Source: Pseudomonadota bacterium
GTDB taxonomy: Bacteria; Pseudomonadota; Gammaproteobacteria; Steroidobacterales; Woeseiaceae
Direction: 5' to 3'
DNA length: 64,000 bases
Assembly (NCBI GenBank): GCA_022563255.1
Contig: JADFNS010000001.1
Span: 62,001-126,000, forward strand
The notes beneath the pieces are model-generated. The model was given only the letters and a program-made list of their open reading frames with translations. It ran no database searches and was not told the origin of the DNA. The position numbers and the translations under genes were made by a program. Positions 10,975-14,197 of this stretch are shown here, piece after piece (position 1 is the first letter of the stretch; each line of letters starts with the position of its first letter).

Positions 10975-12786
<1,812 letters not shown>

Positions 12787-13267: not shown

Positions 13268-13798
13268 ATTTTTGATTCGATAGAAAAATGCTCGCTGCCT
13301 GACAATGCACTTCTGAACGATTACGTTCGCAAAGGCGCCTATACTGATTGCTTCAAAACGGACCTCGCCGGGGCCGTATCTCACGAGGATTTCGTGACTG
13401 GATTTTATACGACGTCGCTGTTCAAACTGGAGCGGCAAATACTGAAATGGGTGATATCCCGACCTTCTACTGATGCCCAGGCGACGCAGCTGGCCGCCGG
13501 GGAAATAGACACTTTCGCGGCGTGGCACGTGGAGGCTCGAGCCGATAATCAGATCCTGATGTGTGATTTTAGAAATCGCACTCGCTTGTGGTTAATGGTC
13601 GCCCCGCTGTTTGCAGACGGCGACGCCAGAACGATTTTGTATTTTGGGTCGGCAGTCATTCCTGTTCGCCGCGAGCCCAACGTCAAGGCGAGGATGGGAT
13701 GGCCTTTTTCAGCGTTGATCGGATTCCACACAATTTACTCTCAGGCACTCCTGTACTTTGCCAAAAAGCGTTTGCAAAGTCGGGGTTCTGACGGGTGA
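13268..13798 (+). CDS. Conserved-looking hypothetical protein without a canonical start codon
   Basis: Not recognised to family level. The open frame runs from 13229 to 13798, and coding-like sequence (for example KGAYTDCFKTDLAGAVSHED) begins well before the first GTG at 13394. No ATG, GTG or TTG lies in frame upstream of 13394. The best-placed alternative is ATT 13268, eight bases after AAAGGTG, giving 176 aa; ATA 13280 is another. A one-base frameshift after the ATG at 13242, which overlaps the cupin stop as ATGA, would also explain it. The protein has YTTSLFKLERQILK, DQ-type LMCDFRNRTRLWLMV and LYFGSAVIPV strands and a basic C-terminus. It is probably soluble. Confidence 0.5.
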   Translation: MFDSIEKCSLPDNALLNDYVRKGAYTDCFKTDLAGAVSHEDFVTGFYTTSLFKLERQILKWVISRPSTDAQATQLAAGEIDTFAAWHVEARADNQILMCDFRNRTRLWLMVAPLFADGDARTILYFGSAVIPVRREPNVKARMGWPFSALIGFHTIYSQALLYFAKKRLQSRGSDG

Positions 13799-13839: not shown

Positions 13840-13848
13840 TGCTAGAAT
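13840..13848 (+). promoter_or_regulatory. Extended -10 promoter for tRNA-Ile
   Basis: TGC-TAGAAT (TAGAAT 13843-13848) is an extended -10 element, followed by a GC-rich discriminator (GCCGCCCC), typical of stringently controlled stable-RNA promoters. No clear -35 hexamer is seen. The mature tRNA starts 14 bases after the -10. Confidence 0.55.
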
Positions 13849-13862
13849 GCCGCCCCTAGCGT

Positions 13863-14170
13863 GGGCCTGTAGCTCAGTTGGTTAGAGCAGGGGACTCATC
13901 ACAAAAGGTGCGTTTGGGCCGAAAGACCCAAAATGAACGGGATGAATTCAGGGAAACCTTAGCAGTTCGGCTGATGGCAATCCTGAGCCAAGCCGCGAGT
14001 ACACTCGCGGAAGGTGCAGAGACTACCTGAGGACTTCAGTGTCCTTAATAACAGGCTAGAGCGTCCCGCCCCTAACGATTCGGTCGAGGGTGATGAGATA
14101 GTCCGCTCCTTTCAGAAATGATTGGGCAAAGTGAATCCCTTGGTCCCAGGTTCAAGTCCTGGCGGGCCCA
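13863..14170 (+). tRNA. ileX: tRNA-Ile (CAU anticodon), split by a group I intron
   Basis: The two exons are 13863-13899 and 14134-14170. Joined, they give a 74-nt tRNA: acceptor stem GGGCCUG/CGGGCCC, D stem GCUC/GAGC, anticodon stem GGGGA/UCCCU, loop CU-CAU-AA, variable loop UGGUC, and T stem CCAGG/CCUGG with loop UUCAAGU. Anticodon CAU with the sequence around it matches the minor isoleucine tRNA of E. coli (ileX), whose C34 is changed to lysidine by TilS to read AUA, rather than a methionine tRNA. The CCA end is not encoded: A73 is followed by CCC. A short T-run (14174-14178) follows and may help termination. Confidence 0.93.
13900..14133 (+). ncRNA. Self-splicing group I intron (IC3-like) in the tRNA-Ile anticodon loop
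   Basis: A 234-nt intron placed right after the anticodon. The 5' exon ends CAU and can pair with an internal guide GUG (13908-13910), leaving the U-G wobble at the splice site; the intron ends in G (14133). Core pairings seen: P2 TTTGGG/CCCAAA (13913-18/13927-32); P3 CGGGA/TCCCG (13938-42/14064-68); P4 TCAGG/CCTGA (13948-52/13982-86); P6 hairpin CCGCGAG/CTCGCGG (13993-99/14004-10); P7 GACTA/TAGTC (14021-25/14099-103). The R-type GGTGCAGAGACTA and S-type AGATAGTCC elements are canonical. It has no ORF. It resembles the known Azoarcus tRNA-Ile(CAU) intron, which also has a CAU exon and a GUG guide. Confidence 0.93.
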
Positions 14171-14197
14171 CCCTTTTTCCACGTTAGTGCCGAATTG

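Follow-up and report, generated by a model that had tools for sequence, protein, structure and literature searches.

A tRNA-Ile(CAU) gene broken open directly behind its anticodon raises three questions: what the inserted sequence is, whether the cell depends on the interrupted copy, and whether the insert was handed down or acquired. Such a gene lies in the analysed stretch of DNA from a Woeseiaceae-like bacterium (64,000 nt, hereafter the window). The best explanation of the whole, to which we give a probability of about 0.85, is a self-splicing tRNA-Ile(CAU) group I intron that would be old and mostly vertically inherited, with many precise losses or allele exchanges.

The entire split gene spanned positions 13863-14170 (Table 1), and the tRNA was interrupted after U36, directly 3' of the anticodon, by a 234-nt intron, as the first-pass annotation had proposed. 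ARAGORN run without introns detected no tRNA in the window; with introns allowed it recovered the split gene and a 234-nt intron, at a junction two bases off that yielded Gln(CTG). This tRNA-Gln(CTG) label was discarded, since the two-base shift violates the U.G/terminal-G rule and no intact relative seen matches it. The CAU reading was kept because of the same rule and because the uninterrupted gene has CTCATAA at this place in 33 genomes of the genus; alongside the anticodon, the tRNA body, judged by eye, may be of the Ile2 type. The 5' exon was identical or almost so in relatives. Behind the 3' exon, the final A of the CCA end was not encoded (CCC, 14171-14173), unlike in the 61 other genomes compared, all of which had CCA. 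The CCC is either a mutation or an assembly error, and enzymatic CCA addition would be needed here because the gene encodes CCC. A consensus promoter scan gave no promoter in the region of the possible -10 box. A 134-aa ORF (13394-13798, +) that separates the cupin gene from the tRNA had no Pfam match.

Table 1. Features of the split tRNA-Ile(CAU) gene and its surroundings, in window positions.
Feature	Position	Strand	Remarks
rpoD, syntenic neighbour used for the host tree	10975..12786	+	Pfam sigma-70 regions 1.1 to 4
Possible extended -10 box, TGCTAGAAT	13840..13848	+	Upstream of the tRNA; recurs in the flanks of several relatives
5' exon of tRNA-Ile(CAU), nucleotides 1-36	13863..13899	+	D-arm and anticodon stem present
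Anticodon CAU	13897..13899	+	U36 is the final base before the 5' splice site; intact relatives CTCATAA
Group I intron, 234 nt	13900..14133	+	RF00028 match and junction analysis; terminal G at 14133
Internal guide GUG, predicted to pair with CAU	13908..13910	+	G13907 can pair with the first intron base, C13900
P2 hairpin, GAAA loop	13913..13932	+	Arms 13913-13918/13927-13932; compensatory changes in 8 of 8 predicted pairs
P3 helix	13938..14068	+	Arms 13938-13944/14062-14068
P4, enclosing P5	13948..13986	+	13948-13953 with 13981-13986; nearly invariant, so little covariation evidence
P6, then P6a hairpin	13987..14056	+	13987-13989 with 14054-14056; P6 nearly invariant
P7, putative guanosine site	14021..14103	+	GACUA 14021-14025 with UAGUC 14099-14103
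P8	14069..14092	+	14069-14073 with 14088-14092; consensus fold
P9 hairpin, GAAA loop	14108..14125	+	5 of 7 pairs compensatory in at least 5 sequences
3' exon of tRNA-Ile(CAU), to discriminator A	14134..14170	+	Followed by CCC, not CCA

The insert was matched over the full length of the Rfam group I model RF00028 (13887-14125; 67.9 bits, E 4.4e-15), the sole Rfam match over cut-off in the whole window. A covariance-model score far below group I had been named beforehand as a result that would tell against the annotation, and the score obtained lay above the curated gathering cut-off of 50. The 308-nt RNA was predicted to fold at -117.2 kcal/mol (z -3.19), and none of 100 shuffles was as stable. 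In an alignment of 32 tRNA-Ile introns (picked for diversity and for a length up to 262; 300 columns), RNAalifold predicted 60 pairs, 27 of them with at least one compensatory change. This covariation sits in P2, P6a (at least one compensatory change in 6 of 7 pairs) and P9; P3, P4 and P6 hardly vary and therefore say little alone. In P3, 6 of the 7 pairs were unchanged in all 32 sequences, and the seventh, a U.G pair, was broken in 3. P3, P4, P6 and P8 were all part of the consensus fold. P7 does not appear in the RNAalifold output, where the P3/P7 pseudoknot is not drawn; both P7 strands were invariant in 32 of 32 sequences, and the same stretches align to the Rfam core.

The P2, P3, P4, P6 and P7 pairings read from the letters in the first-pass annotation were borne out by the consensus fold and the invariant P7 strands, and its splice-site wobble and terminal G were found as U13899 with G13908 and as G14133, the last intron base. 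The open-frame check revealed no endonuclease gene within the intron, the longest stop-free stretch being 50 aa. A protein-spliced (archaeal-type) intron was set aside, the group I core being complete. Altogether, the assignment of the insert as a group I intron of tRNA-Ile(CAU) is supported, and the intron is real and very probably functional.

The proposed guide GUG was compared over 116 introns (115 extracted by tRNA anatomy and one, L031, by hand) from tRNA-Ile(CAU) (105), tRNA-Lys(CUU) (5), tRNA-Thr(UGU) (4) and tRNA-Arg(CCU) (2). The junction finder required the intron to be preceded by U and to end in G, and left the guide free. The trinucleotide cognate to the anticodon (G followed by the complement of bases 35 and 34) stood near the intron start in 116 of 116 introns, although a given trinucleotide is often expected by chance within some 35 bases. 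In all 116, the first intron base could also pair with the base just before the guide (C-G, A-U or G.U). Of the four guides, the cognate one came first in 94 of the 116 introns, but in none of the 5 Lys introns. The guide assignment draws on constant surroundings (every one of the 32 aligned Ile introns has GGTGC) and on the adjoining first-base pair. Introns in tRNA-Lys(CUU), tRNA-Thr(UGU) and tRNA-Arg(CCU) occupied the same position, with a guide matching the anticodon in each. The tRNA-Lys(CUU) genes were split at 36/37 by related introns with the guide GAG (L031, L038, L039, L099, L223); L031 comes from a member of the same genus as the window, G238, whose genome contains a split tRNA-Ile as well. 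The tRNA-Thr(UGU) introns, with the guide GCA, formed one clade drawn from three families (L212, L214, L217, L220). A grouping of Lys and Thr introns as sisters was not relied on, being possibly a long-branch artefact.

The assembly holding the window (2.45 Mb, 34 contigs, 84.3% complete) had Woeseiaceae MAGs as nearest named relatives in a DnaG search of species genomes (best 80 of at least 566 relatives). NCBI taxonomy places Woeseiaceae in Gammaproteobacteria, Woeseiales, in agreement with the gammaproteobacterial host that had been suggested from the sequence. A tRNA family search identified 36 other tRNAs in this genome, all named; the two with a CAU anticodon were by eye initiator Met (L018) and elongator Met (L012). 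The joined exons matched only the two halves and the elongator Met gene in this 84%-complete assembly, so that the intact tRNA-Ile(CAU) elsewhere, which would have weakened the first-pass annotation, was not found there. TilS was encoded (N-domain 165.1 bits, cut-off 93.6), and AUA made up 16 of the 199 Ile codons in eight window genes.

Among 73 genomes of the genus, 30 had the split gene, 30 the intact form (counted by a 27-base anticodon arm with up to 1 mismatch) and none both. This exclusion has a chance of 1.3e-10 if genomes are independent, which they are not. The carrier count omits G240, with hits that their flanks place in 23S rRNA (L103), and G248, with a partial hit. When 3 mismatches were allowed, nine of the 30 carriers gave a match. 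The joined exons found one or both halves in every carrier and no intact tRNA-Ile(CAU) in any of them, 15 being at least 90% complete; no full-length match exceeded 88.7 bits, and naming covered the best 12, all of them tRNA-Lys(CUU) (75 to 89 bits, 82-86% identity), with a few weaker matches below them. Intact variants in non-carriers scored 115-124 bits with the same query. The 13 genomes with neither form comprised three with intact variants in that range (G141, G240, G242), three with intron-side halves at or near contig ends (G248, G668, G669) and seven, one of them 99% complete (G035), in which the joined-exon search gave no tRNA-Ile(CAU). Half tRNAs left at contig ends by assemblies breaking inside the intron were seen at L303, L304 and L391-L393; carriers may therefore be undercounted.

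Since none of the 30 carriers yielded an intact copy, it is probably the split gene that functions. Were it a dead copy, with a working intact gene in the missing part of the assembly, the 84% completeness and the missing terminal A of CCA would be accounted for. The same absence across the carriers, the long invariant stretches in 32 introns and the match of both exons to relatives all speak against decay, and we regard a dead copy as very improbable. In the mechanism envisaged for a working copy, the transcript would fold with the anticodon stem holding the exons, and the guide GUG would pair with CAU in the anticodon. The first attack, after U36, would come from a P7-bound guanosine, and the freed U36 would then attack after the terminal G; we infer these two transesterifications, guided by GUG on CAU, from group I biochemistry. 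The spliced tRNA would be finished by CCA addition, and TilS, which we infer from tRNA biology to act after splicing, would make C34 lysidine and so let the tRNA read AUA. The intron itself would be old in the bacterial family, passed down mostly with its locus, and precisely lost or swapped for an intact allele many times.

The locus was traced through its neighbour rpoD. In 27 of the 30 carriers the split gene shared a contig with rpoD at a distance of about 5 kb or less, as did the intact gene in all but one of the 26 non-carriers placed on the rpoD tree. This tree held 56 genomes (30 carriers and 26 non-carriers); of the 33 known non-carriers, four were excluded for a broken or partial rpoD, and G242, G665 and G666 were outside the search. 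Intron presence required 17 changes on it, at least 13 of them on well-supported branches, against a mean of 19.1 for shuffled labels, and 96 of 500 shuffles did as well as the observed value. A tree of 25 better assemblies, which leaves out the qualifying G145, gave 8 changes (shuffles 8.0). Intron presence was almost unrelated to kinship, and the presence of this intron's relatives changes remarkably often from one close species to the next.

The intron sequences retained a stronger trace of descent. For 29 carriers (excluding G294, truncated close to a contig end), intron and rpoD trees shared 7 of 26 splits (shuffles: mean 0.22, maximum 3), among them a deep 12|17 split with support of 99.5/98 in introns and 99 in rpoD. 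In the tree of 116 introns, one clade (99/98) united the 30 tRNA-Ile introns from family f1 and another the 11 of f6 (100/75), and 34 of the 35 from f10 fell in one clade with the two of f8 (99/93); f17, f95 and f97, with two introns each, did not form clades. Genera were mixed in the f1 clade, with introns from g7, g8 and g12 lying among those of g1. An AU test rejected the rpoD topology as a tree of the introns (p 8.4e-6), and distances between introns did not correlate significantly with those between rpoD genes (Mantel r 0.09, p 0.18); inheritance was therefore not purely vertical. In the split/intact sister pairs G178/G056 and G216/G232 the T-stem differed by two base pairs, a difference that points to an exchanged tRNA more than to simple loss of the intron. 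The flanks of split/intact sister pairs were too diverged (identities 0.36 to 0.86, mostly 0.5 to 0.7) to decide between gain and loss. The simplest reading is that the intron predates the split of the genus and would have been inherited mostly with its locus, with many exact losses and some allele exchange. Between vertical inheritance and transfer, the alternative posed at the outset, the former would hold mostly, within the host family, accompanied by very frequent on/off changes.

The strongest competitor is repeated gain, in which the intron would re-enter the intact genes of relatives through reverse splicing at the anticodon or recombination with split alleles. Its near-random presence on the rpoD tree and the rejected topology are what such movement would leave, as are close introns in distant hosts (those of G178 and G278 differ by 0.039, with rpoD 0.19 apart). 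One-way models on the midpoint-rooted tree needed 19 losses or 21 gains, so that the event count alone does not choose. The deep split of the introns coincides nonetheless with that of their hosts, at high support in both trees, and large host families keep their own clades, which gain across a genus would blur; repeated gain is an unlikely source of the scatter, though one to be taken seriously. A recent transfer from an Azoarcus-like betaproteobacterium would explain why tRNA and guide are those of the Azoarcus intron, and tRNA-Ile2 introns are reported in the betaproteobacterial Acidovorax and Burkholderia in the available part of the tRNAscan-SE 2.0 paper (PMC8450103). The present intron is nested, however, among 30 introns of its own host family that form one clade, within a tree whose class-wide introns include any betaproteobacterial ones without distinction. 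The only intron that we take to be Azoarcus-like (L256) lies far away in this tree, and such a transfer is scarcely credible. L256 (G073:C4) is itself a 198-nt tRNA-Ile(CAU) intron, distant from all others (branch 4.6), which presumably resembles that of Azoarcus.

Beside old, mostly vertical inheritance, a more speculative reading can be set, one that we hold as a joint proposal and consider doubtful as it stands. It supposes a single endonuclease-free intron lineage for which the anticodon serves as address, two guide-base changes leading to tRNA-Ile(CAU), tRNA-Lys(CUU), tRNA-Thr(UGU) and perhaps tRNA-Arg(CCU), together with on/off switching in a seemingly single-copy tRNA of one genus, its presence almost without phylogenetic trace. 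Switching might possibly proceed by reverse splicing under the guidance of the anticodon, together with exact loss by way of spliced RNA. The guide-to-anticodon match over four tRNAs makes retargeting directly testable by a two-base change of the ribozyme. The genus of the window, whose close relatives have either split or intact alleles in the vicinity of rpoD, offers a natural system for measuring gain and loss of an endonuclease-free intron, and is also suited to asking whether splicing costs or benefits the host.

The intron of Azoarcus tRNA-Ile(CAU) is a compact group I intron located after the anticodon, with the guide GUG and GAAA loops on P2 and P9, and its splicing has been demonstrated. 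It was reportedly the subject of work by Reinhold-Hurek and Shub in 1992 and by Tanner and Cech in 1996. The present intron shares its host tRNA, its site after the anticodon, its guide and both GAAA loops, a likeness of generally known features rather than of aligned sequences; the host here is Woeseiaceae-like, and splicing is established for the Azoarcus intron only. Insertion after U36 of tRNA-Ile(CAU) with the guide GUG, one mark of the Azoarcus type (IC3), was found here. The introns of Acidovorax and Burkholderia mentioned above affect the same tRNA and came to light because a tRNA finder missed the gene; they are betaproteobacterial, and the accessible text of that paper contained no gain/loss analysis. 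In the Gammaproteobacteria, interrupted tRNA-Leu(UAA) and tRNA-Arg(UCU) genes with putative group I introns are reported for Beggiatoaceae and Thiomargarita (available part of PMC4853749), in other tRNAs than here and with the intron type left undetermined in that text. As far as its available text goes, a 2014 review assigns group I introns of tRNA genes to cyanobacteria, alphaproteobacteria and betaproteobacteria, among them the cyanobacterial tRNA-Leu(UAA) intron, an old intron at one fixed position (PMC4033280). By this description, the present intron would likewise be old and fixed in position, in a different tRNA. Paquin in 1997 and Rudi in 2002 are said to have treated the cyanobacterial intron, the latter reportedly with locus recombination in the title. 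This kind of intron is already known; in open-licence PMC, as far as its texts were available, we did not find the host lineage or the dense turnover described, nor any paper pairing Woeseiaceae with an intron. Among the papers listed from the same source, none was noticed that describes group I introns in tRNA-Thr or tRNA-Lys of bacteria, though such reports may exist elsewhere.

Beyond the genus, RF00028 matches occurred in 128 of 296 genomes of an order sample and in 56 of 369 of a class sample. The 111 loci read in the order, about those above 44 bits (the strong, duplicate-looking G098:C65 and weaker places were left out), were assigned by script to tRNA-Ile(CAU) (82), tRNA-Lys(CUU) (3) or no tRNA (26). 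By eye, six of these 26 were tRNA-Ile(CAU) (L079, L104, L122, L243, L244, L254) and L031 was tRNA-Lys(CUU); several others lay in 23S rRNA or tRNA-Leu. The 50 class loci read comprised 23 in tRNA-Ile(CAU), spanning 17 families outside the order, 4 in Thr, 2 in Arg, 1 in Lys and 20 without assignment. With the seven families of the order, split tRNA-Ile(CAU) genes thus carried 24 family codes: a ribozyme breaks up the AUA reader, which cells should require, in no fewer than 24 groups of family rank within the class sampled, and an ordinary tRNA scan misses the split gene.

Some further loci were recorded in these samples. One genome (G274, contamination 3%) held two different split tRNA-Ile(CAU) genes (L053 and L089), possibly through contamination. 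Two sub-cut-off RF00028 matches, L278 (G624:C13) and L279 (G361:C99), lay by eye beside a tmRNA-like 3' end. The window's own genome contained a second group I candidate at G000:C11:21312-21574 on the minus strand (L002 1573-2088; 46.8 bits, below cut-off), which by its flanks lies in a 23S rRNA gene and is overlapped by a 171-aa LAGLIDADG_1 ORF.
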